Translations under genes and position numbers: made by a program | The notes under the pieces: generated by a model | The model's database searches: none | Seen by the model: the letters and a program-made list of their open reading frames with translations, nothing else | What the model was told of the DNA's origin: nothing | Source: Mesorhizobium sp. NZP2077 | Lineage (GTDB): Bacteria; Pseudomonadota; Alphaproteobacteria; Rhizobiales; Rhizobiaceae | Length of the DNA: 64,000 nt | NCBI RefSeq assembly: GCF_013170805.1 | Contig: NZ_CP051293.1 | Location: 4,284,001 to 4,348,000, forward strand | Reading direction: 5' to 3' | Shown: one piece after another, positions 591-52,923 of the stretch | Position numbering within the stretch: position 1 is the first letter of the stretch | Layout: each line of letters opens with the position of its first letter

Positions 591-3044
591 ATGGCTAGAC
601 GAGGCCGGGGCTTGGATCAGGGCGAGGACGCTGTTGCCGGCGTCAGCGAACGATCCCTGTTTGCGACGCCTCTGGCGACCCCACCGCCGCCGTCGCCACT
701 TGTGCCGGGCTCCAGTAAGCCAGCTTTGCCGGCGAATGTTCCAGCGCCAACTCCGCCCATCGAAACAGGCAGGATTGTGCGTGTGCGCCGGCAACTGGGC
801 CGGATTTCACTGCCTCGTCTGCGCCACAGCGTGGCCATCGCGGCGGAGCTGGAGCTTGACCGGGGCATCGCCTTCTTGCTGGTGCCGGTGTGTCTGGCCG
901 CCGGGGCGATCGGCTATTATTCGCTGGCAGTGGAGCCTGATTTCGCAAAGCCTGTCGCGGTCGTCGTGCTGGTGGCGAACTGCGCGCTTGTTTCGCGCTC
1001 CTGGCCGAAAACCCATCTGGGCTTCATGGCGGCATTGTTGTGCGCGCTTGGCCTGCTCGCCGCCAAGGTCGAGACATGGCGAGTAGGCACGCAGATGCTG
1101 GGCTCGGAAATCTCGACGCAACTGACCGGCCGCGTCGTCTCACTGGAGCAGATGGAGACTGGCCGCATCCGTCTGACCATCGACGTGACCTCGACCGCTC
1201 GCCCGAAACTGCGCTATGCGCCGGAAAGGGTCCGGCTTTCGGCGCGAAGCATCCCGGCGGAAATGACTGCCGGCTCCCTGGTCACCGGCTACGCCAAACT
1301 GTTGCCGCCGACTGGCCCGGTGCGGCCGGACAGCTATGATTTCTCCTTCGACAGCTATTTCGCCGGCATCGGCGGCAGCGGGTTCTTCCTCGGCAATCCA
1401 ACAGTCGTCTCCGCTGATGACGGTGAGATGCCGCTGTCGGCCCGCCTTTCCTCCGGGATAGAAAATGCCCGTGAAGCCATCGCCGACCACATCAGGGCCA
1501 CGGTCGGCGGTGCTGAAGGTGAGATCGCGGCAGCGCTCATTGTTGGTGTCCGAGCGGGCATCCCCGACGAAATCAACGAAGCGATGCGGCGCACCGGCAT
1601 CTATCACATCATCTCGATTTCCGGGCTGCATATGGCGCTGGTCGCCGGCACCATCATGGGTCTGCTGCGCGGCGCCTTCGCGCTGTTTCCGGATTTTTCC
1701 GCGCGGCGGCCGGTGAAGAAATACGCGGCTGCCGCGGCACTTGTCTCGATCGCCGCCTATCTCGTCATTTCCGGCGTCGTCGTTGCCGCCGAGCGCAGCT
1801 TCATCATGCTGGCGGTGATGCTGATTGCCGTCCTGTTCGATCGCGCGGCGCTGACCATGCGCAATCTGGCGATCTCGGCGATCGCCGTCATCGTGGTTTC
1901 GCCGCATGAGGTGGTCGGCCCGAGCTTCCAGATGTCGTTTGCCGCAACGGCCGCACTGGTCGGCGCCTACGCCGGCTGGGCGGATCACCGTGCGGGAAAG
2001 GCAAGACCGCCACCGCCAAAGCGGTCCCTGCCAAGCGTTCTCACGCGACGATTCCTGCTGGCGACGGGTGGCTTGGCCATGACTTCGATCATCGCCGGCA
2101 GCGCCACGGCGCTATTTGCCATCTGGCATTTCCAGCGGGTGTCGCCGCTCAGCCTGTTCGCCAATCTGGCCGTCATGCCGATCGTGTCAGCGGTGATGTT
2201 CCTGGCCGTTGCCAGCGCGTTGCTGATGCCGTTCGGATTGGATGCGCCAGCCCTCTACCTGATGGGCAAGGGCCTGACGGCAATGATCGCCATCTCGGCG
2301 TGGATATCGGAACGCTCGCCGGTCGACGCGGTCGGGCTCATTTCGCAGCAATCCGTCCTGCTGGTGACCGTCGCCCTGGTCATCGCGACGATGGCGACGA
2401 CATGGCTGCGGCTCGCAGCACTGCCATTCGCGCTTGCCGGTCTGCTGACGGTGTCGGATACGCGCACACCGGATGTGCTGATCTCTGAGGACGCGCGGCT
2501 GGTCGCCCTGCCGATCGGCGGCGGCGAACTCGCGGTCAGCCGGGCTCGCCCGAACGAGTTCACCGTCGACAATTGGAAACGCGCGCTGACATCCGAAACC
2601 ATCGTCGTGCCGGAGATGTTCAGCAAGGCGGATGGGCTATTCGACATTGCCGATGCCGTCAATCTGCCACCGGGAGCGCCATTCTATTGCACGGACGGCG
2701 TTTGTCTCGCCCGGCACCCGTCCGGCGCGATCATCGCGCATGTCGAAGACCGCAAGGACACCTGGAAGGCCTGCGGTTTCGCAGACCTGATCGTCGTCAA
2801 TGACGCGACGGGATATGATTCCTGCCACAACTCGCTGGTTCTCGTCGTCACCAAACGGCAGCTCGCCCGCAAGGGCAGTGCTGCCGTCTTCTTCGACCGC
2901 CAATCAGCGACAGGTCCTCCAATTATCAGCTTCGCGGTGGACGGGCCGTATCGGCCCTGGCATGCGCAGCGCAAATATTCACGCGAGGCGAGGGGGCTGG
3001 CGCCCTGGCGCAAACCCGAAAAGCCTGCCGCTCCTGCTCAGTAG
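591..3044 (+). CDS. comEC: ComEC/Rec2-family inner-membrane DNA channel protein
   Basis: ComEC proteins form the inner-membrane channel for single-stranded DNA uptake. The 817-residue protein has an N-terminal DUF4131-like region and a polytopic Competence domain carrying the family hallmark [12 protein letters not shown] near residue 340. The last 200 or so residues lack the HxHxDH metallo-beta-lactamase motif seen in Bacillus ComEC; I recall alphaproteobacterial homologues being similarly reduced. I chose ATG 591 because AAGGGG lies about 10 bases upstream; an in-frame GTG at 573 is possible. Its 3' end overlaps the convergent lexA by 7 bases. Natural transformation is not established for such rhizobia, so the physiological role is uncertain. 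Confidence 0.9.
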
Positions 3045-40061: not shown

Positions 40062-40318
40062 ATGGAACCTAATAAGCAGGCGCAGCTTATTCGCGACATG
40101 ACCGCACGCGGAATCAACTTCTTGCATCGATGGCTGGCCAACAACGTCCCCGAGACGACGAACGCTGATGACATCTCTGTTGAGGAACTCACGCACAAGC
40201 TGATCGCGGACGCCAAGGCACTCGGCATCAGGCGGGGCGAGATCGACGAAGAGGTGGACGCCTCTATCGCACGATCCTCGACGCTATTGTGCATTACGAG
40301 CCTGGCCTGCCTGAATAG
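40062..40318 (+). pseudogene. DUF768-type rhizobial protein with a one-base frameshift
   Basis: The start MEPNKQAQLIRDMTARGINF, then LHRWLANNVPE and ISVEELTHKLIADAKALGI, is typical of DUF768. In the first frame the sequence after DEEVDA becomes unnatural. Adding one base near 40262 restores YRTILDAIVHYEPGLPE followed by TAG at 40318, the usual DUF768 ending. This is a one-base deletion or a sequencing error. The function of DUF768 is unknown. Confidence 0.75.
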
Positions 40319-40386
40319 CTCTTGCCATCGAGATCGAGGCGAGGAATATGATCCTCTGTTGCGGCGGTCCTTCAAGGGAGATCGCC

Positions 40387-40671
40387 ATGCCTCAAAAAAC
40401 CCTCGCTGATACCCTTGCAGCCCGCGAAAGCGTCCACGTCAACTGCAGCCATCCCATGTGCTGCATGACCAAGCTCGATATTAAGGCGCTCATTGATAGG
40501 CTCGGACCTGGGCATGGCTCAATGCATCAGGATCTCGTCGGGCTCTTCGGTTGCTCGAATTGCAAGGCCGCCGGCCGCGATCGGCGCCCGGTGTTCTTCA
40601 CCTTCATTCCCGACTACGAAGGCCAGCAGAGAGAGCGGAACCGCGACTGGAAGCCGACTTTCAATACCTAA
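40387..40671 (+). CDS. Small zinc-ribbon-like protein
   Basis: The 94-residue protein MPQKTLADTLAARESVHVNC has paired cysteines at about 20 and 25/26 (CSHPMCC) and 56 and 59 (FGCSNCKAAGR), a likely zinc ribbon, and ends RNRDWKPTFNT. AGGGAG lies upstream of ATG 40387. A degraded second copy ending RNHDWKRTFEPPRGT stops at 44785. In both places a member of the small TYVVSVFE protein family follows about 160 bases downstream, suggesting a two-gene module. Confidence 0.6.
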   Translation: MPQKTLADTLAARESVHVNCSHPMCCMTKLDIKALIDRLGPGHGSMHQDLVGLFGCSNCKAAGRDRRPVFFTFIPDYEGQQRERNRDWKPTFNT

Positions 40672-40829
40672 AAGGCTAATGCGGCCCGGCGCCTATAGAT
40701 TGGGATGTGAATAGGAACCGGGCCTAACCGACAGGCTGTTTGTGAGAACGGCGCCGAGGGCTAGCGAATATATGCGCCTATGCTAATACAATCGGGACTT
40801 ATCAATACGAACGATGGAAGCAGCAAAAG

Positions 40830-40982
40830 GTGGAGCACAAGCCGGCCACAACCTACGTCGTCAGCGTCTTCGAGAAGCCGCACTGGCGCACCGTGCTGAC
40901 CACCAAGGACAAGCAGAAGGCGTTCGATATGGCGAAGGAGATCGGCGACAAGGTGGGGATCAGGCAGAAGGTGAAGCGTTAG
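40830..40982 (+). CDS. Small TYVVSVFE-family protein, copy A
   Basis: A 50-residue frame from GTG 40830 reads VEHKPATTYVVSVFEKPHWR, then TVLTTKDKQKAFDMAKEIGD and a basic end. Three related sequences lie at 43528, 44950 and 46058. The sequence from 60 bases upstream through the start is nearly identical to that before copy C, so the module was duplicated with its leader. The function is unknown; the predicted fold is a short strand and helix with a basic C-terminus. Confidence 0.5.
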   Translation: MEHKPATTYVVSVFEKPHWRTVLTTKDKQKAFDMAKEIGDKVGIRQKVKR

Positions 40983-41101
40983 CAGACACCTAGCAATGAT
41001 AACGGCAAATGCTTTTAGGCCGCTCCAATGCCCTTGCGAATCCGTAAGTCGCTTAATGCTTGCCAGGCTCATATGACAAGGAATTTCTGGGAGGAAAGCC
41101 G

Positions 41102-41729
41102 GTGGGACTGCTCAGAGGGCTTCGCATAAAACTGGGGCTGAAGAAGCATCCTCTGCCGCCGCTGCCCGGTGTCGAGATCGGTCGTCATGCCTACGGGCTC
41201 GTGAAGAACTCCTTTTGGGGTGCGCATGAGAAATCGCCAATACGAATAGGTTCTTTCTGCTCGGTTGGCCCGGGTGTGCTCTTTCTCGGCGCGGCCCGAA
41301 CATCGCACCAACACAGCCACCAGCTATCCGCTTCGAGTCGTTGACGGGAAGATCCGTAATGGCGCTGAGGCTTCTAGCAAAGGACCTACCACGGTCAGCC
41401 ATGACGTATGGTTTGGTGCTCGCTGTATCATCCTAGGCGGCGTCACGATCGGGAACGGAGCGGTCATCGGTGCTGGCAGCATCGTCACCAGGGACATTCC
41501 CCCTTACGCCGTCGCGGTCGGCAATCCAGCTCGCGTCATCCGCTACCGGTTCGCGCCTGATGTCATTGGGCGCTTGCAGGCATTGGAATGGTGGAACTGG
41601 AGCGATCGCCTGATCGGCGAACGCGCCTCGATTTTGACGACGATGGATGCAAAACATTTCCTAGACGCCGTAACGCAGCAATCAACGGGGACTGTGCGCG
41701 AGCAAAGCCGGGCTGAACCAGCGGCGTGA
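41102..41729 (+). pseudogene. CatB-like hexapeptide-repeat acetyltransferase with a frameshift
   Basis: The first frame (GTG 41102, GGGAGGA 7 bases upstream) encodes a left-handed beta-helix start with IRIGSFCSVGPGVLFLG. A second frame, offset by one base, continues EHRTNTATSYPLRV, VSHDVWFGARCIILGGVTIG and GAVIGAGSIVTRDIPPYAVA to the stop at 41729. The junction is near 41295. The whole matches the xenobiotic or chloramphenicol acetyltransferase and O-acetyltransferase group of about 208 residues, so one indel separates it from an intact gene. An IS630 element lies 12 bases downstream. Confidence 0.8.
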
Positions 41730-41740
41730 CGTATCTCTAA

Positions 41741-42903
41741 TACCAACGGTCTTGGCTGCTGACTCTTTTGTGATTTTGGCCGATTTGCGCGCCGTGATTC
41801 CCTATTGCCGAAGGAGATTCGGCGATGGGATCAGCGGTGAAGTTGCGGACGAACTTTTCGGCGGGGGAGCTTCGCCGTCTTGCCCGGAACTCAAAGGATG
41901 TGCGCCAGAGCAGCCGGCTGTTGTCGATCGCAGCGGTTCTGGACGGCATGAGCCGGGCCGATGCGGCCCGGATCGGCGGGATGGATCGCCAGACGCTACG
42001 CGACTGGGTGCATCGGTTCAACACGGCCGGCCCCGATGGTCTTGTGGACCAATGGGCACCGGGACCAGCGTCCCGGCTGTCGCATGAGCAGCAGGCCGAA
42101 CTGGCCGCGCTTGTGGAGAAGGGCCCGGATCGTGCCGTCGATGGCGTCGTTCGCTGGCGGCGGATCGACCTGAAGAAAGCCATCAAGGACCGCTTCGGCA
42201 TTGATTATGACGCGCGCTATGTCGGGAAGCTGCTGCACAAGCTCGGCTTCTCCCACATGAGTGTGCGACCGCGTCATCCGGCGCAGGATGCCCATATCAT
42301 CGAGGAATTCAAAAAAACTGGCCTCGCACGCTGAAGGCGCATCTTTGCGACTTGCCGCCGCGCACGAAGGTGGAGATCTGGTTCCAGGACGAAGCAAGGA
42401 TCGGCCAGAAGAACGGGATTGTACGGCAGTGGGCCAGACGCGGCACGCGGCCGCGACAGCCGGCCGACCAGCGCTACAAGAGCGCCTACCTGTTCGGCGC
42501 CATCTGCCCAGCACGTGGTACCGGGGCGGCTCTCGCACTGCCGTTTGCCGATACCGAGGCCATGCAACTCCATATCAACGAGATCAGCCGCCATGTCGAA
42601 AAGGGCGCCCATGCCGTACTCGTCATGGATCGCGCCGGATGGCACACCACCGCAAACCTCAGCATACCGGACAACATCACCCCGATCTTCCTGCCGTCGC
42701 GCGCGCCGGAGCTGAACCCGGTCGAGAACGTCTGGCAGTATATGCGCCAGAACTGGCTCTCCAACCGTGTCTTCGACAGCTATGACGATATCATCGATGC
42801 GGCCTGCGACGCCTGGCAGAAACTCCTCGCAGATTCCGAGACCATCACATCAATCGGGATGCGCCAATGGGCCCATGTCGGTCAAACCCCATGACTCTTG
42901 GTA
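41741..42903 (+). mobile_element. IS630-family insertion sequence
   Basis: The ends TACCAACGGTCTTGG (left) and, in reverse complement, TACCAAGAGTCATGG (right) form imperfect terminal inverted repeats flanked by TA, the target this family duplicates. The element is about 1.16 kb and contains one transposase in two overlapping frames. Confidence 0.85.
41825..42894 (+). CDS. IS630 transposase, joined by -1 frameshift
   Basis: The first frame (41825-42334) carries helix-turn-helix domains (LLSIAAVLDGMSRADAARIG). The second frame holds the DDE catalytic core: FQDEARIG with the first aspartate, VLVMDRAGWHT with the second and PELNPVENVW with the glutamate. At 42311-42317 seven A residues allow a -1 slip that joins EEFKK to NWPRTLKAHLCDLPPRTKVE. 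Programmed slippage at A-runs is known in IS630 elements, so this is probably an active design rather than damage. Confidence 0.82.
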
Positions 42904-43527
42904 TAAGGGGCGTGGCCAGATAGATCGCGCCGAGAGTGAAGCACTGATGAAGTTAGCCGGCGCCAGTTGGGAGTTGGGTGGCTTTGGGGAGCGCTCGCCC
43001 GTGGCAAAGCCTGAGAGCTTGATGCGAAGCTCAGTTCATACACCGAGCGAATATCAGGCACTTCCAAAGGAAGCTTGAAACGGAAATTGACCCTGTCAAC
43101 CGAGCGCTACTCCTGAGGCTCCTCGCCCAATAGGAGGCTTGGCGGCTCCCTCACGTTGTCGGTGTTGTTAAGCCATAAACCATGCCGGCCTTTCGTAGCC
43201 TAGCGACTGATGATCCGCCTTATGAGGTTTCGTCAGGGTCTTCATGGTAGGTTAAATCGCTGATCAACCCTTTGACGTGTTTTGCCCATTCGTGTTCCGG
43301 AATTCGCAACAGACGAGCTAGCTTCCAGGACTCGCGCGGCAGGCTTCGACGATAAGGGCGGCGGCCAGCCGAAACGGCCCGCTGGTGAGGCCTGCACACA
43401 CGCTCATTTGCCTAAGCCCGGAGTGTTGATGTGCAGTGTGAGGCTGATCTGCAAAAGCGGCCGGTGCCCTCCATCGTGCCGAGATCGGGCCTCCGCTCGG
43501 GCGGCGCTCTTCTCCGCCAGAGAGGTG
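42904..43527. other. Stretch without an intact gene
   Basis: It contains a copy of the repeated leader element near 43351-43392 but no credible coding frame leads from it. The open frames here become incoherent. Confidence 0.4.
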
Positions 43528-43661
43528 CGGGTCAGCGTGTACGAGAAGCCGCACTGCACTTGACGACCAAGGACAAGCAGAAAGCGTTCGATATGGCCAA
43601 GGAGATCGGCGGCAAGGCGCGAGTCGAGGAAATCACTCCGAAGCGGCCTCGTAAGTACTAG
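43528..43661 (+). pseudogene. Small TYVVSVFE-family protein, decayed copy B
   Basis: RVSVYEKPH is followed by a stop. The second half, LTTKDKQKAFDMAKEIGGKA, resumes in another frame and ends RPRKY. A deletion of about ten bases, covering what is WRTV in copy A, explains the break. Confidence 0.65.
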
Positions 43662-44338
43662 AAGTGGTAGTTTATGCCGACACGGACCGTATCTAACTTG
43701 ATGGCATCGGAGGTGGTACTAACGACTTCGAAGTCTGGTTTCCCCAAATCCACATGCAGGTATTCTGCCTTGAGGGAAAGGTGCTGGTTCATCGCCCACT
43801 CGACGCCGGCGCCAGCCGACCAACCCCAGCGAGTGTCGCTATAGCCGCAGGTGGCACCACCACCGCATGCGCCGAGATCGGCCGATCCCTTCACGCGTCC
43901 CACGGCAAAGCCGCCTGTGACATAGGGAAGTAGATTCTCAAAGGCATATCCCAAGCGGGCGCGACCGGTGCCGAACCAACTCACCTTGGCGGAGCAGCCT
44001 TCAATGTAGCAGGGGGCGCCGACAGGTGGCTCCAATACATCGCCTCTGATATTCGCGTAGGAGATGTCACCTTCCACGCCAAGCACGAAGCGGTCGTTCT
44101 GCCAGTTGTATCCACCAGTCAGGCCGCCGACAAAACCGTTTGCATCAAAGTCGACCGACAAGGTCGCCGGGACATAATTGTAGGTTTGTGACCCCCAGCC
44201 ATACCCAGCAACTGCGCCGATATATGCGCCCGACCAATTGACCGTAGTGACCGGATCGGTCGCTACGGCGTCGGCGGCTATGGCAGAACCGGCAACGAGC
44301 GAAACCAATCCGGCCAGCAGAATGGAAATCAGGCGCAT
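43658..44338 (-). CDS. Outer-membrane beta-barrel protein (Omp25/Omp31-like)
   Basis: The 226-residue protein has a signal peptide ending LVAGSAIA, then a small eight-stranded barrel with the family features WSGAYIGAVAGYGWG, GFVGGLTGGYNWQNDRFVLG and the C-terminal VRVGINYHF ending in phenylalanine, the outer-membrane insertion signal. Rhizobial and Brucella homologues are abundant surface proteins; haem binding is known for one branch. Its 3' end overlaps the end of decayed copy B by 4 bases. It is intact, unlike many island genes. Confidence 0.9.
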   Translation of the reverse strand: MRLISILLAGLVSLVAGSAIAADAVATDPVTTVNWSGAYIGAVAGYGWGSQTYNYVPATLSVDFDANGFVGGLTGGYNWQNDRFVLGVEGDISYANIRGDVLEPPVGAPCYIEGCSAKVSWFGTGRARLGYAFENLLPYVTGGFAVGRVKGSADLGACGGGATCGYSDTRWGWSAGAGVEWAMNQHLSLKAEYLHVDLGKPDFEVVSTTSDAIKLDTVRVGINYHF

Positions 44339-44949
44339 TAATCAATCCCCAGCAAAAACCCTCGAAGCTGTTTAGCAATGGGGTAGGGAGACCGATATGG
44401 CAATTCTGCAACAAGCGTCTGCTTTTAGGCCGGACGCCGGAGACGTTGCCGCCGATGCGACATGCAGAAGGTCGTCAGCAAAATAGCCCCTCCGCCGTGC
44501 GGGACGTCACCGGGAAGGAAGTCGAGTTCATCCGCTGGAACGCTACAGGACCGGTGCGTCCCCTTACGGGTGGGTAGCACCATCGAGCTTGCCGACATCA
44601 AAAACAAAGCCCCGGCGCGGGGTGAGGCGCCGGGGCTTTTAGTTATGTACGAGCTACATTCCATGTCCGCATATGACAGTGCGCCAATCTGCTCAACAAA
44701 CGGTAAGTTCAGCATGCAACTTGAAGTTGGTCGCCAGCGAAATCACGACTGGAAGCGGACGTTCGAACCACCACGCGGGACTTAGGTGGGTGGCCCAGCA
44801 GCTTTGGTTGCAAGAGGGACTGGCAGCGGAAGGCCGCTGGGCCTGACCGGTAGTGGCCTTGAGGACGGGCGCGCGTCCGGCTAGAAAATGTATACGCCAT
44901 TGCTGATATAATCGGGATTTATCAAAATGAACGATGGAAGCAGCAAAAG
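44339..44949. other. OMP leader, terminator and zinc-ribbon gene remnant
   Basis: An open frame at 44462-44785 spans a strong terminator, which argues against a gene. Its end, RNHDWKRTFEPPRGT, matches the end of the zinc-ribbon protein at 40387, so 44700-44785 is probably a fragment of a second copy. Confidence 0.5.
44606..44640. terminator. Strong hairpin, bidirectional terminator
   Basis: AAAGCCCCGGCGC and GCGCCGGGGCTTTT form a 13-bp stem with an 8-base loop, with T tracts on the plus side and, less strongly, on the minus side. Confidence 0.8.
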
Positions 44950-45122
44950 GTGGAGGACGCGACGGCCATGACCTACGTCGTGAGCGTATTCGACAAGCAG
45001 CACTGGCGACCTGACGACAGGTACAAGAGCGAAGGCCTTAGCGCTTGAGCAGGGGGATGGTGCAGGATGCAGCTAAGGCGCGGGTCGAGGAGTTCACGCT
45101 GAAGCGGAAGACGCGTAGGTAA
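44950..45122 (+). pseudogene. Small TYVVSVFE-family protein, decayed copy C
   Basis: The frame VEDATAMTYVVSVFDKQHWR runs to a stop at 45048. The family's basic end (ARVEEFTLKRKTRR) is found downstream in another frame, ending at 45122. The middle (TVLTTKDKQ...) is lost. Confidence 0.65.
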
Positions 45123-45166
45123 AAAAGCCGGCGCCCTCGCAGGGAGGTTGCCCGAATGACGCCGGC
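45121..45166 (-). terminator. Minus-strand terminator after the 74-residue gene
   Basis: GCCGGCG and CGCCGGC form the stem with a long loop; six T residues follow on the minus strand. It lies about 95 bases beyond the end of the minus gene at 45261. Confidence 0.65.
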
Positions 45167-45260
45167 CGGACGGTCCCTTTCAGGTCCGCCGCACCTCAGA
45201 CATAGCTGAGTCTTTCCGTTACGTCATGCTGGAGGAGCGTCATGTATACGAGTTACGAGC

Positions 45261-45485
45261 TCATTGTCTACGGGCCGCCCGCCGGCTCGCAAACGCCTCT
45301 AGTTCATCAAGCGTAAACTCGTTTTGGTATCTGTATTGCGAACCATCTGAATAGATACCGCCGGCATTTATCGAAAGGATGACCGCCCCATCCGTTTCGA
45401 ATCTGACCTCGCCATCGCCCAACGGTCTATGGAAAATCGTTCGAGAAACGCCTTCTCGTTTCGCAGGTCCCACTAGGATCCGCAT
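45261..45485 (-). CDS. Hypothetical 74-residue protein
   Basis: The frame MRILVGPAKREGVSRTIFHR, then PLGDGEVRFETDGAVILSIN and YQNEFTLDELEAFASRRAAR, has coherent composition and a GAGGTAGG ribosome site before ATG 45485. A minus-strand terminator follows. I do not recognise a family. It looks like a real small gene rather than a shadow. Confidence 0.6.
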   Translation of the reverse strand: MRILVGPAKREGVSRTIFHRPLGDGEVRFETDGAVILSINAGGIYSDGSQYRYQNEFTLDELEAFASRRAARRQ

Positions 45486-45828
45486 AGCCTACCTCGCCCT
45501 GTTGCTTCGCAAATAGGAAGCAGCGCCCTCCCGCCACAACTAAGCTCCAGGTGCAATTGCCGCACCAAACTAAGGTGTCCCAATATGGGGGCAAAACTGG
45601 AGACCGGAGGCGCAAGAGCACGGCTCCTACGGCTGGGTAGGACTTCAGTCTTAGTCCAGCCGATAGGCTTAGTTGCGTAGTTACTAATATGCCCATAGTT
45701 TTGGCAGCGCGGGGGACAGTCGAACGCTTCCCGCAGTGGCCGGTGTGGTCCGATGCCCCCAACAAGAGCCCAAACCGCACCGGCCATCCGGCATATCAAG
45801 TTGCCGCATCGGGGAAGGCAGTCCTTAA
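45486..45828. other. Stretch without a supported gene
   Basis: Several short frames on both strands disagree with each other and lack start signals. It must contain the promoter of the minus 74-residue gene. Confidence 0.35.
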
Positions 45829-46074
45829 GTGCTCTCAATTGTTTTGCGGGAAAAGCTGGTTTGCGAATGCGGTTGCACCGGGTATTTGAAACTACGAGAA
45901 GACGACCTGCCCTTTAGCGGCCCCTGGGAATCCTGCAGCTTGGAGGGTTTCAGTGGCGGCAGCCTGACGATCACCAATTCCGGAAATATTCCCGGCGACA
46001 AGTTGGCCTACCTCCGCCCTTTGTGTCCTCAATGCAGCCAGTGGGGCAAGGTGAAATATGCCAGCCGAACCTGA
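45829..46074 (+). CDS. Hypothetical cysteine-pair (zinc-binding?) protein
   Basis: From GTG 45829 (or TTG 45844) the frame has LVCECGCTGYLKL near the start and LCPQCSQWGK near the end, two cysteine clusters that could bind zinc. About 80 residues. Its end overlaps the start of TYVVSVFE copy D by 17 bases, repeating the pairing seen at 40387-40982. The start is weakly supported. Confidence 0.4.
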   Translation: MLSIVLREKLVCECGCTGYLKLREDDLPFSGPWESCSLEGFSGGSLTITNSGNIPGDKLAYLRPLCPQCSQWGKVKYASRT

Positions 46075-46234
46075 GCTCGCAAGAACCATCACCTACATCG
46101 TCAGCGTTTTCGAGCAACCGCACTGGCGCACGGTGCTGACCACCAAGGACAAGCAGGCGGCTCTCGATATGGCCAAGGAGATCGGCGACAAGGTGCGTGT
46201 CGCAGAGACCACGCCAAAGCCGAAGGAGCGCTGA
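46058..46234 (+). CDS. Small TYVVSVFE-family protein, copy D
   Basis: This is the best preserved copy, 58 residues from ATG 46058: MPAEPELARTITYIVSVFEQ, then PHWRTVLTTKDKQAALDMAK, EIGDKVRVAETT and a basic end. It aligns with copy A without gaps over about 40 residues. The intact frame in two copies with synonymous differences suggests past selection for the protein. The function is unknown. Confidence 0.55.
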   Translation: MPAEPELARTITYIVSVFEQPHWRTVLTTKDKQAALDMAKEIGDKVRVAETTPKPKER

Positions 46235-47701: not shown

Positions 47702-47799
47702 TTTAGAGAAGCAGTAACGCACCTAGCGCGGCCATCAGCACGGCAGGCGCGGCCATGCCCAGCATTGCCCTGTGCCTGTAGCGACAGACCGCGCTGCAA

Positions 47800-48830
47800 G
47801 GCCAGATTTGAGGCGGCGGTTTGCGTCGTCGACGATCAGGGCGCGGTGCATCTGGAGGCGGCGGTGATGGCCGATCCCGAGGCACTGTTTGCGGTGCTGA
47901 AGCCGTTTCTCGCGCGACTGCGGCGTGTCGGGCACGAGGCCGGCTCGCTGTCGCCTTGGCTGCAGCCGGAACTCAAGAAACTTGGCCTGCCGGCGATCTG
48001 CCTGGAGACGCAGCACGTGCGCGCCGCGCTGTCGGCGCAGCGCAACAAGACCGACAAGGCCGATGCGCTCGGCATCGCCCACATCATGCGCACCGGCTGG
48101 TTCCGCCAGGCCTAGATCAAGTCGGAGAGCTGCCACCGGACGAAGCTTCTGCTGACCCACCGGCGCAATCTGAAGGCCAAGTTTCTCGACCTGGAGAACG
48201 CCATCTGGCACTCGCTGAAGTCATTCGGCATTCGCCTCGGCAAGGTCGGACGCGGCGCTTTCGAGCAGGCGGTTCGCCAGGCTGTGGCCGACGATCCGCT
48301 GTCGGCCGAACTGATGGACGCCATGCTGTCGGCGCGCGCGGCGCTATGGAAACAGTACTGCCGGCTGCACGATCTCGTCGTGAAAATGGTGGCGCCCGGC
48401 GAGCTGTGTCGACGCTTTCATGGCGATCCCCGGCGTCGGCCCGGTGACGGCGCTCTCGTTCATGACGGCGATCGACGATCCGTCGCGCTTTCGCCGCTCG
48501 CGCGACGTCGCCGCCTACTTCGGGCTGACGTCGCGGCGCTGGCAGTCCGGCTCAACGATCGACATTCAGGGACGGATCTCCAAGGCCGGTGACGCGGACG
48601 TGCGGCGCGCGCTCTACGAGGCGGCGTCAGGTTTGATGACGCGCTTCAAGGGTAGGGACAAGGTCAAGAGTTGGGGCCAGGAGCTCGCCAAACGCTCCTG
48701 CCACCGCAAGGCTTGTGTTGCGGTGGCGCGCAAGCTGGCGGTGATCATGCATGCGATCTGGATGGACGGCACGTTCTATGTCGGCGATCCGGCTGCGGGC
48801 GAGGCCGACGGCCGCGCAGCGCGCCCATGT
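47800..48830 (+). pseudogene. IS110-family transposase, broken
   Basis: The frame carries EAAVCVVDDQGAVHLEAAV, RNKTDKADALGIAHIMRTGW, then an in-frame TAG at 48113, continues IKSESCHRTKLLLTHRRNLK, and shifts frame near 48414 before AIPGVGPVTALSFMTAIDDP and AAYFGLTSRRWQSGSTIDIQ. The first segment that normally holds the initial catalytic aspartate is missing. At least three lesions make it inactive. Confidence 0.88.
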
Positions 48831-49650
48831 CAAGGACCGCAAGCTGCTCGGAGCGCATCGATGAGCGGCGCGACGGCGGTTGAAACGCATGGTGCTCGCA
48901 CGCTGACGGACGCCACACAAGGAGATGCCCCGGCGGATGAGAACCGATGCAGACCAGGAACGACGGAACGCACGTTATCTCGCCTGCGGCCGCGCCGACG
49001 ATGAGACGGCCGGACCGCGCCGGATTGCCTGTGACGCTGCTCCGTCACTCCGATGGAAAAGTGCGCCACGACGGTTCCGGTGCTGCAAATAAGCAGCGCT
49101 GCTACCCCGTCGCAGAGCGCGGAAGACTGCACGGCGCATCGGAACTCAACGCAAGAGTACGGGATCTTGGTGTAGAGCATAGAATAGTGTATTATCGTAG
49201 ATTGGAAGAGGAACGACGATGGAATAAAGTCTCGCAAAATACGACCGATTAAGACGGCGAGATAAAAGGGAGCGAGGTGCGGCTTGGATCGGTCGTGTTG
49301 TTTCAGTGGGTTATCTAGGATTTTCGCGAGGTGCGGGCTTCCCCTGCACCTCCCAAGATTGTCGATTTTCGTTATTCGTCCGTAGCTTAGTGCGATGTGC
49401 GGCGCCTCGGTCGGCGCTTATGGAGAGTGGGGCCGGGAAGGGGGCGTGGTCTGAGACGGCAGCGAGACGCTCGACAGAAAGAAGCAGTTCTCGGAAGGGA
49501 CGCGGGTCCTTCGGTGACCTATGGTCGACTGGCAGGTGACCTAGTCCCTATGATTGCTGGGCCTGAGGGCGGCCCGTCATCCGATATGCAACGGTACGAG
49601 GGTTAAGCCGGCTGGCCGGCGCAGAGCCTCATGCATAGGAGACGGGCCAT
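48831..49650. other. Stretch between two IS110 transposases
   Basis: No credible gene. The end before 49651 should be the left noncoding end of the second IS110 element, but element limits could not be fixed because this family often lacks terminal inverted repeats. Confidence 0.4.
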
Positions 49651-50766
49651 ATGGACCATATCAGATTTGTCGGTTTGGATATTCACAAGGAACGGATCTC
49701 AGTCGCGGTGGCGGAGAGCGGACGCTCCGGCTCGGTGGAATATCTCGGCGAGATTGCCAATGATGCTGATACCATCAGCAAGCTGTGCGATCGTCTCAGG
49801 CGGTCCGGCAAGCCACTGGCGTTTTGTTATGAGGCCGGCCCGTGCGGCTATGGCGTTCATCGCCAACTCACGCGCCTCGGCCATCGGTGCGACGTGGTGG
49901 CGCCATCGCTGATTCCGCGGAAGCCTGGCGATCGGGTGAAGACGAACCGTCGCGACGCCACCATGCTCGCCCGCCTTCATCGGGCCGGAGAGTTGACCCC
50001 AGTCTGGGTGCCCGACGCCGATCATGAAGCCATGCGCGACCTGATCCGGTTGCGCAGCGTCGTGCGACAGGTGGTGACGCGAGCGCGCCAACATCTTCAA
50101 GGATTTCTGCTGCGTCACGGGCGCAAGCATGAGCGCGGGACGGCCTGGCGAAAGGCTTACCGGCGATGGCTTTCGACATTGGCCTTCGACCATCCCGCTC
50201 AGCAGATCGCATTTCAGGACTACGTCGATGCTGTCATGGATGCGGAACGGCGCCTGCAGCAGGTCGAGGAACAGATACTCAGCCTGCTCCCGGAATGGAA
50301 CCAGCGCCCGGTCGTTGACGCCTTGCAGGCGATGCGCGGCATCGCGCTGATTAATGCCGTGGTGCTGGTCGCGGAGGTCGGTGACTTCACACGCTTCTCA
50401 AACCCACGCCAGCTCATGGCCTATTTTGGCCTGGTCCCCGGAGAACAATCGAGTGGTGAGACCGTCTGGCGCGGCGGCATCACCAAGACCGGCAACACTC
50501 ATGCCCGGCGCGCGCTGGTCGAAGGCGCCTGGGCTTACCGGATGAGAGCGCGCATCGGCCGGCACAAGGTCGACCGGATCGAGGCGCTGCCGAAAGTCGT
50601 TCGCGATATCGGGTGGAAAGCGCAAGTTCGACTGTGCACCCGATATCGTCGGCTGAGCGCGCGCGGCAAGAATGCGAACGTCGTCAATGTCGCCATCGCA
50701 CGCGAGATGGTGGGCTTCATCTGGTCGATCGCCTGCACGGTTCAATCCGCGCCAAAGACGGCGTGA
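49651..50766 (+). CDS. IS110-family transposase, intact
   Basis: The 371-residue protein has the N-terminal DEDD catalytic domain with the first aspartate in FVGLDIHKERIS, YEAGPCGYG with the glutamate and VKTNRRDATMLARL, and the C-terminal helix-hairpin domain RGIALINAVVLVAEVG followed by YFGLVPGEQSSG. It is full length with no internal stop and could be active. It is not closely similar to the broken copy upstream, so two separate insertions occurred. Confidence 0.92.
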   Translation: MDHIRFVGLDIHKERISVAVAESGRSGSVEYLGEIANDADTISKLCDRLRRSGKPLAFCYEAGPCGYGVHRQLTRLGHRCDVVAPSLIPRKPGDRVKTNRRDATMLARLHRAGELTPVWVPDADHEAMRDLIRLRSVVRQVVTRARQHLQGFLLRHGRKHERGTAWRKAYRRWLSTLAFDHPAQQIAFQDYVDAVMDAERRLQQVEEQILSLLPEWNQRPVVDALQAMRGIALINAVVLVAEVGDFTRFSNPRQLMAYFGLVPGEQSSGETVWRGGITKTGNTHARRALVEGAWAYRMRARIGRHKVDRIEALPKVVRDIGWKAQVRLCTRYRRLSARGKNANVVNVAIAREMVGFIWSIACTVQSAPKTA

Positions 50767-51506: not shown

Positions 51507-51887
51507 TTGCTCTTCCGCTCCGGCAGCGCAGTCGTCGCCTCGACGGTTGCGGCACCTGCACTTGGTACAGAGCCGCCGTGCCAAAACCCGGAACCGTCCA
51601 GTAAACTGCGAACGCTGATTGACGTGCACAAGGCAGCATACGCGTCGTTCGGCGAAGCCCTGCACGAAATAGGCGGTGGCAGGCGCGACTCGGCCAGAGC
51701 CGGCCGGGAGGAGGAGAGGGCGCTACTCGCCATCTGCAGCTATGCTGCGGTTGGGGAAGGGGATCGCCTGGCCAAGGCCGGGTATCTTTTAGAGATCGAG
51801 GCGCGCGGCGAGGCGGTCAACTCTGCTCGAGATTTCGGACTGACACCGCCACTCGCGTCAACTATGCGACCTTTGCCGCGTGGATAG
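51507..51887 (+). CDS. Hypothetical protein with signal-like start
   Basis: The 126-residue frame starts at a TTG (51507) after INRRA and has a hydrophobic start FRSGSAVVASTVAAPALG, twin-arginine-like if translation begins upstream, although no ATG is available. The second half, LIDVHKAAYASFGEALHEIG and EEERALLAICSYAAVG, looks like rhizobial hypothetical proteins of unknown role. Its end overlaps the convergent integrase gene by 26 bases. The start is unresolved; it may be 5' truncated. Confidence 0.45.
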   Translation: MLFRSGSAVVASTVAAPALGTEPPCQNPEPSSKLRTLIDVHKAAYASFGEALHEIGGGRRDSARAGREEERALLAICSYAAVGEGDRLAKAGYLLEIEARGEAVNSARDFGLTPPLASTMRPLPRG

Positions 51888-52923
51888 TGTGGAGCATTTC
51901 TGGCTTGAGGTGCGTATAGCGCCGCAACATCTTCCAGTCCTTGTGCCCTGTGACCAGCGCTACCTGTTCAATTGTGAACCCAGCTTCAAAAAGGCGGCTC
52001 GTTCCTTCGTGACGCAAGTCATGAAAATGAAGGTCGTGGATGCCCAGGTCCGAGCATCCTCTGCGGAAGGCGGTGCCGACTGACCTGTGATTGAATGGGA
52101 AAATTCGATCATCGTCGTTGCTTCGCTTGGCGCGCTGCTCCTCAACAATGGTCCACGCGTCGTAACCGGTCGCTGCGAACAGCGGTATACGCTGATTGTT
52201 GCCGCTCTTGTTGCGCGGGTCTTTCCGGTCACGGATGAGAAGCATCCGCGTGCGAGTTTCCAAATCGGACCAACGTGCCTTGCAGATTTCCTCCTGGCGC
52301 ATCGCGGTTGCGACGGCGAAACGTATGATCTGGCTAACTGGCGCCATCAGACGAGGATTTGAATCGAAGTGAGCGATCAGTCTGTCGAGCTCATCCTGGG
52401 TAGGCCGCCTGTCACGCTGATGGCCTTTCCCAATGAGGCCAAGCCTCTTTAGGGCGATACGCGCGAGATCAACGGGTTCGACCTTGACGGGCAGCCCGTG
52501 CACCGCAGCGGCGTGAGCCAGAATGAGTTTTATAAAGCCTATGTCGATACCGAGAGTCATCGGTCCCGCGCCTTGGGCGGCCCGTTCGCGACCAAAATGA
52601 ATGAGCCGTTCGCGATCGAGGGCTGCGATGTTGCACGTCCCCAGATGTCTTTGGAGCATATCGAGGGCTGCGGCCTTGGAGCGGCGAGGGGACTTGCCTA
52701 CATCGCACATGTCGTCGATATGAAGGTCGATGAGTGCGCCGAAAGTTTTCAGGCGCGCTATACGGGACTTGGTCGGCGTCTCACCGCGATCGACCTGGCG
52801 CTCGGTTTCGGTTGCCCAGCGCCGTGCGTCGTCGCGGCGAAGGAAGGTCTCGCTGACGTAGCGACCTTTGCGACGGACTTGGACACGCCAGGAACCGGAC
52901 GAGAGCTTTGTGTATGTGGCCAT
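51862..52923 (-). CDS. Tyrosine site-specific integrase of the island
   Basis: The 353-residue recombinase has an N-terminal arm-binding region (SWRVQVRRKGRYVSETFLRR), a core-binding SAM-like domain, and the catalytic set: Arg209 in AMRQEEICKARW, lysine in RDRKDPRNKSG, His301 and Arg304 in HDLRHEG, His327 in GHKDW and Tyr336 in RRYTH. It lies head to head with dusA, its start 116 bases from the dusA start. Integrases next to dusA that insert in its 5' end are an established group. It appears intact. Confidence 0.92.
   Translation of the reverse strand: MATYTKLSSGSWRVQVRRKGRYVSETFLRRDDARRWATETERQVDRGETPTKSRIARLKTFGALIDLHIDDMCDVGKSPRRSKAAALDMLQRHLGTCNIAALDRERLIHFGRERAAQGAGPMTLGIDIGFIKLILAHAAAVHGLPVKVEPVDLARIALKRLGLIGKGHQRDRRPTQDELDRLIAHFDSNPRLMAPVSQIIRFAVATAMRQEEICKARWSDLETRTRMLLIRDRKDPRNKSGNNQRIPLFAATGYDAWTIVEEQRAKRSNDDDRIFPFNHRSVGTAFRRGCSDLGIHDLHFHDLRHEGTSRLFEAGFTIEQVALVTGHKDWKMLRRYTHLKPEMLHTIHAAKVA

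Follow-up and report, generated by a model that had tools for sequence, protein, structure and literature searches.

An ordered, repeatedly copied locus of Mesorhizobium ending in a family of small TYVVSVFE protein genes

Among the described systems closest to the locus considered here, the small RNA ar14 forms three hairpins whose anti-Shine-Dalgarno loops carry the motif CCUCCUCCC, and NfeR1 silences ntrBC through pairing at the translation start (both according to the available part of PMC10746234). In the CIN1 locus of Rhodobacter, CcaF1, a small RNA-binding protein of the DUF1127 type, is co-transcribed with the CcsR RNAs (PMC10253847, available part). The DNA analysed here, referred to as the window, is a stretch of 64,000 nucleotides (G000:C1:4284001-4348000) within the 7.69 Mb genome of Mesorhizobium sp. 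NZP2077. An earlier note on this window had pointed to four copies of a gene for a tiny TYVVSVFE protein paired with small cysteine-pair proteins. This protein family, here called VF, has a usual length of about 54 amino acids. VF forms the end of a small, Mesorhizobium-specific and repeatedly copied locus of four parts, namely a DUF768 gene, a gene for a small cysteine-pair protein (cx), an RNA element (R1) and VF itself, of which parts are often missing.

The four VF copies of the window are found on the forward strand where the earlier note had placed them. Copy A (40830-40982) has a GTG start and encodes 50 amino acids, its C-terminus being shorter than usual, and copy D (46058-46234) has an ATG start and encodes 58; both are intact. 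Copies B (43528-43661) and C (44950-45048) are decayed: the front and back of copy B lie in different frames with a stretch lost, and a stop follows after 32 codons in copy C. In the genome as a whole the 34-residue core occurs at 9 places, and a profile of 31 rows gives 15 matches, fragments included. Within the genomes sampled VF is restricted to Mesorhizobium. A profile search found it in 40 of 119 genomes of this genus, with up to 21 matches per genome, many of them decayed. Among 397 genomes of the order it was present in five, all Mesorhizobium, that is in one genus of 141, and it was absent from the 140 other genera sampled. The named relatives are also from Mesorhizobium, one of the 66 database records being titled only 'Bacterium'. 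In M. japonicum MAFF 303099 such a relative is carried by a plasmid.

VF is a real family of coding genes under strong purifying selection. The copy set was assembled from 96 tblastn copies, which gave 80 distinct ones once identical cores were removed; loci repeating other loci (L003, L008, L026 and L105-L110) and tblastn matches shorter than 31 residues were excluded. Among 47 intact copies picked from the 80 at 65% protein identity, the mean proportions of synonymous (pS) and non-synonymous (pN) differences were 0.51 and 0.12. Because this set had been filtered on protein identity, the test was redone on 64 of the 80 that, over 27 codons, match the consensus in 70% or more of their nucleotides. 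Among the single-base codon changes that set these copies apart from the consensus, 411 are synonymous and 96 non-synonymous (possible changes: 60 versus 183), and the synonymous excess on which the earlier note had made its proposal hinge is thereby present. The entropy at the first, second and third codon positions is 0.43, 0.29 and 1.08, and an in-frame stop occurs in 5 of the 64 copies. In an AlphaFold2 model (mean predicted local distance difference test score 77), VF is predicted to form strands at residues 12-19 and 22-29, a helix at 32-42 and a further strand at 46-51. The net charge of 31 members has a median of +5 and ranges from 0 to +8, copy D having +1.

The order of the locus emerges from the places listed for each part. 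All counts of VF, cx, R1 and DUF768 places given here refer to listed matches; second fragments of one broken VF copy were merged or omitted, and the VF places numbered 140 in the first cx-VF count and 141 later, one weak place of the own genome having been added. Every one of the 67 listed neighbour pairs separated by at most 300 nt follows the order DUF768, cx, R1, VF on one strand (DUF768-cx 10, DUF768-R1 1, DUF768-VF 3, cx-R1 8, cx-VF 11 and R1-VF 34), some of these pairs sharing a locus. The first cx list held 88 rows and omitted the 62 weaker ones of the 150 listed; when the count was redone with all 150, 69 of 69 pairs were ordered, both extra pairs involving the second fragment of one broken cx gene. 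All four parts stand together at 2 loci, and the combination of DUF768, cx and VF occurs at 4, of which 3 lie in the own genome and include that of copy A.

The VF genes are preceded by leaders of several types, as sorted by eye over the 80 copies listed. A frequently recurring one is R1, an RNA element of about 87 nt with three hairpins, for which a covariance model was built from 15 VF leaders. In its structure 92.5% of cells are paired versus 35-45% in slid controls, a comparison that favours R1 because one of the 15 model sequences supplied the fold on which the structure is based; its covariation score exceeded those of all 500 shuffles. Three hairpin loops were obtained in 50 of the 52 matches folded, the typical loops being UGCCCUCCA, GGGCCUCC and UCCGCCAGA. 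The tetranucleotide CUCC averages 1.9 occurrences per element (0.70 after mononucleotide shuffling), and 35 of the 52 hold two or more. R1 is present in 62 of the 119 Mesorhizobium genomes, sometimes alone, and in 3 of 297 genomes of the order, all Mesorhizobium; 47 of the 150 listed R1 places are in genomes devoid of VF. Seven listed places have cx 42-67 nt upstream, one overlaps cx, and four have both cx and VF. In the window, a probable decayed R1 precedes copy B (43452-43536, forward strand; cmsearch 21.6 bits, E 0.018 for the window). The leader of copy A (40759-40829, forward strand) belongs to a second type that is not R1. It is common to copy C (44879-44949, forward strand), as the earlier note had reported, with 85% likeness over 71 bases, and to an own-genome copy near G000:C1:4619566, with 89% over 55 bases (4619566-4619620).

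Upstream of R1, a motif GGAAC-N15-17-[GA]TT is found in 36 of the 52 matches, and the consensus for the 35 matches with a GGAACATTAG-like motif reads cttgacGGAACATTAGc..t.tCTAAa.gTT. The consensus of EcfG promoters is GGAAC-N16-CGTT (PMC7083833, available part). The GGAAC-N16/17-GTT motif before R1 resembles the EcfG stress-promoter type, and its use by EcfG is putative.

These features can be set against the known RNAs. Like ar14/NfeR1 and the cuckoo RNA family (Rfam RF02344, RF02791), R1 is alphaproteobacterial and has three hairpins with C-rich, anti-Shine-Dalgarno-like loops. In the ar14 and cuckoo RNAs CCUCCUCCC is found in each loop, whereas the loops of R1 are CUCC-rich, shorter and different from one another. 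The upstream motif of the former is CTTAGAC-N17-CTATAT, as far as their description available here goes, in place of the GGAAC-type motif of R1, and R1 is often followed by an open reading frame, unlike ar14 and the cuckoo RNAs. With the Rfam model of ar14, a genuine ar14 in locus L029 scored 73 bits, and R1 in the same scan of 10 loci gave no match. R1 was rejected as an ar14/cuckoo member on the grounds that it had no Rfam match in the 10 loci at E up to 0.5 and that its loops lack an identical CCUCCUCCC; at gathering scores Rfam gave no match to R1 in the window. The genuine ar14 of L029 and a tRNA (together 2519-2885, reverse strand) are neighbours, at about 1 kb, of a locus in which DUF768, cx, R1 and VF are all present. 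The CIN1 locus, in the part of its description available, also unites a small protein and a CCUCC-type RNA under a stress-type promoter. It differs in that VF is not DUF1127 (31 VF members searched against Pfam with a limit of E 10 gave no match to this family), that R1 lies upstream of the gene and that R1 and VF are separable.

Open reading frames other than VF can also follow R1. At L110 (after 1944) and L146 (after 1595), and also at L137, it is followed by another small one (MSQSVEPPILPE / MSQTIQPPILPE...), and in the own genome a frame of the L110/L146 type runs into a VF tail (G000:C1:4404790). At L144 and L148 a tiny hydrophobic frame starting MNNIIWLVGA follows R1. At L122-L126 the 60 nt next to R1 contain no start of a 35-codon open reading frame.

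By analogy, the locus may combine a small RNA and a small protein under stress control and resemble the cuckoo-RNA (CIN1) loci in its way of working, although it is not one of them. This is a tentative reading, held at not far below an even chance, in which the function of VF is inferred. R1 would be transcribed from a stress promoter of the EcfG type as a regulatory RNA, and its CUCC-rich loops would bind the ribosome-binding sites of mRNAs, as ar14 and cuckoo RNAs do. Its third hairpin with the short T run would act as a leaky terminator from which some transcripts continue into VF; where the two meet, VF typically starts about 19 nt past R1, a spacing that suggests one transcript. The small, mostly basic VF, predicted to be of strand-strand-helix-strand build, would, like CcaF1, have RNA or ribosomes as its target, either together with R1 or alongside it. 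The VF copies with other leaders, which are the majority, would have been re-wired to other promoters.

Several observations weigh against this analogy. VF follows R1 within 150 nt at 32 of the 150 listed R1 places, and in 26 of these the gap measures 13-23 nt. Even the fraction of 32 in 150 is inflated because at least 11 of these pairs, as tallied from coordinates, are seeds of the R1 model. At the other 118 places no VF lies that close, and R1 stands in front of just 22 of 78 near-full-length VF places; R1 and VF are therefore not obligate partners. The loops lack the full CCUCCUCCC motif and the T run is short. The -10 part of the upstream motif is GTT or ATT, the leading C of CGTT not being general, and since the stretch GAACATTAG-N6-CTAAA..GTT before R1 is near-palindromic, the motif may be an operator instead of a promoter. 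Comparison of VF with the folds in PDB gave no clear match. Exceptions to the order of the locus appear when pairs up to 1.5 kb apart are considered: 2 of 16 for DUF768-cx, 4 of 13 for DUF768-R1, with opposite strands in one of them, 4 of 23 for DUF768-VF, 1 of 10 for cx-R1 and 5 of 44 for R1-VF. Beyond 300 nt, reversed chains of R1-DUF768 (2) and VF-R1 (2) were encountered.

A fixed order with random losses is also what the decay of one ancestral block yields. VF would then be an accessory small protein with a task unrelated to R1, and the four parts would be neighbours only through their shared place in recombining accessory islands and through joint copying of one ancestral locus that later decayed. 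The absence of R1 and cx from most VF copies, the several leader types discerned by eye and the many broken copies are in keeping with such a history. The differing upstream flanks of R1 and the tight R1-VF spacing speak against it. An exact GGAACATTAG is present in 31 of the 52 R1 matches. Read towards this motif, their 31 upstream flanks are all different and show no more than chance likeness up to a point about 10 nt short of it; R1 has therefore been re-found in many places. Past the VF stop, likeness is at chance after about 10 nt (62 flanks kept of 68). Shifted likeness is missed in both comparisons because the flanks were aligned without gaps. Block copying and decay with separate tasks for VF and R1 appears possible, if on balance doubtful.

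The points at which likeness ends also bear on the question of mobility. R1-VF, or VF alone, could be the cargo of a small non-autonomous mobile element or be such an element itself, given that likeness falls to chance near both ends, that up to 21 places are found per genome and that transposases lie nearby in the window. However, no terminal inverted repeats were seen by eye, one flank search revealed no empty site among the matches listed, and some loci share about 170 bp beyond VF, as seen at L057 (4140-4308; matches in G031, G106, G048 and G095). Because VF occurs with several leaders, no single mobile element can account for it, and this explanation is considered unlikely. The mobile genes of the window comprise a helix-turn-helix plus DDE_3 transposase in two apparently frame-split open reading frames between copies A and B (41825-42894), an IS110-type transposase identified with Pfam (49651-50766) with a second, broken copy beside it recognised by eye (47765-49004), and an integrase-like frame of 353 residues (51862-52923, reverse strand; by eye).

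The upstream protein genes are best seen at copy A. The locus begins there with an open reading frame of 115 residues (40062-40409, forward strand) that belongs to the DUF768 family (PF05589; E 1.8e-15, 57.3 bits, above the gathering score of 27.8). The match runs out at position 58 of the 67 in the profile, and by eye the rest of the family sequence appears to continue in another frame. DUF768 was detected at E 1e-8 in 72 of the 119 Mesorhizobium genomes and in none of 14 control genomes; its function is uncharacterised and no mention of it was found in the literature searched. It is followed by the intact cx gene (40387-40671, forward strand; 94 residues). Of the 141 cx homologues 120 were listed, the named ones being from Mesorhizobium; the own genome has 7 cx places, and with distant relatives included cx occurs in 74 of the 119 genomes. 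Copy D is overlapped at its start by cx2 (45829-46074, forward strand; 81 residues, 6 homologues), a cysteine-pair protein gene of different sequence, and copy C is preceded by a probable remnant of the cx C-terminus (44729-44785, forward strand) that was recognised by eye in a translated frame and for which tblastn at 1e-3 gave no report. A cysteine gene or its fragment thus stands upstream of copies A, C and D, as proposed in the earlier note. That note had overlooked two parts, the DUF768 gene ahead of cx and the structured RNA that separates cx from VF. Directly upstream of VF, cx2 recurs at L073 and L084, and a third cysteine protein runs into the VF start at L033 and L089 (by eye).

The notion of a repeated module lacking a recognised function has held up. 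No library gave VF or cx a match above a curated cut-off. VF, cx, cx2 and a 74-residue open reading frame of the window gave nothing over the cut-off in Pfam and NCBIfam. At E 0.1, VF and cx had no match in PADLOC or PHROGs, cx2 and the 74-residue frame had none in PADLOC, and cx2 had one in PHROGs, to a family of unknown function (0.056). That the module consists of two genes is half right because cx lies near just 19 of the 141 listed VF places. At these 19 it occupies the same strand, upstream by no more than 1.5 kb, and the other three arrangements are not represented at that range among the places listed, which is far from random; at the remaining 122 places cx is missing from that range, and the cysteine gene does not always come first. 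A toxin-antitoxin or two-gene regulatory pair formed by cx and VF would fit the constant side and strand of cx whenever it is near and the occurrence of cx2 immediately ahead of VF at copy D, L073 and L084. Against such a pair, the separation of cx and VF ranges from 88 to 1250 nt in the pairs measured, each gene is also found without the other and neither matches a known family in the libraries searched, which makes it very improbable.

Another origin considered for VF is the ribosomal protein uS17, from which it could derive as a mimic acting on 16S rRNA or ribosomes. A profile-profile comparison, after removal of row L162 from the uS17 alignment as wrong, gave a probability of 57% and E 1.1e-4 over 52 columns. 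This weak likeness spans the full length and is clearest by eye in GDKVRVEE..P. Column-shuffled decoys did as well in 1 of 600 uS17 and 0 of 400 VF profiles, a reversed uS17 profile found nothing, the median score of VF (11.6 bits) lies above the best of 3850 shuffled VFs (11.4), and NCBIfam S17 models matched 13 of 31 members (best E 5.2e-4). On the other hand, all members are far below the curated cut-offs (copy D 13.8 bits versus 74 for S17), one decoy outscored the real pair (27.5 versus 26.2) and uS17 was picked after many families had been scanned. The first choices of Pfam were DUF2968 (21 of 31, best 0.0042) and DUF6538 (12 of 31), S17 turning up in 1 of 31. The predicted strand-strand-helix-strand succession does not appear to be that of an OB (oligonucleotide/oligosaccharide-binding) fold, and BLASTP gave no alignment for the one VF-uS17 pair tried. 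The likeness is a lead, not a claim, and derivation from uS17 is hardly to be expected. A wider scheme built on it, in which genus-specific translational control would combine a stress-induced R1 with read-through into a miniature uS17-like VF at the same ribosome or mRNA step, the whole being copied and re-wired in accessory DNA, is quite improbable as well.

Two further genes of the window lie close to VF copies. An outer-membrane beta-barrel gene (43658-44338, reverse strand) abuts the broken copy B with its 3' end. The 74-residue open reading frame mentioned above (MRILVGPAKREGVSR...; 45261-45485, reverse strand), which has no family match, is also found near VF at L002 (1159-1371).

Overall, a DUF, two hypothetical proteins and an uncatalogued RNA, so far anonymous in Mesorhizobium genomes, are brought together into one ordered locus. 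Its intact, partial and rewired copies form a natural series from which the role of each part may be learned, and with R1 Mesorhizobium gains a probable new family of regulatory RNA.

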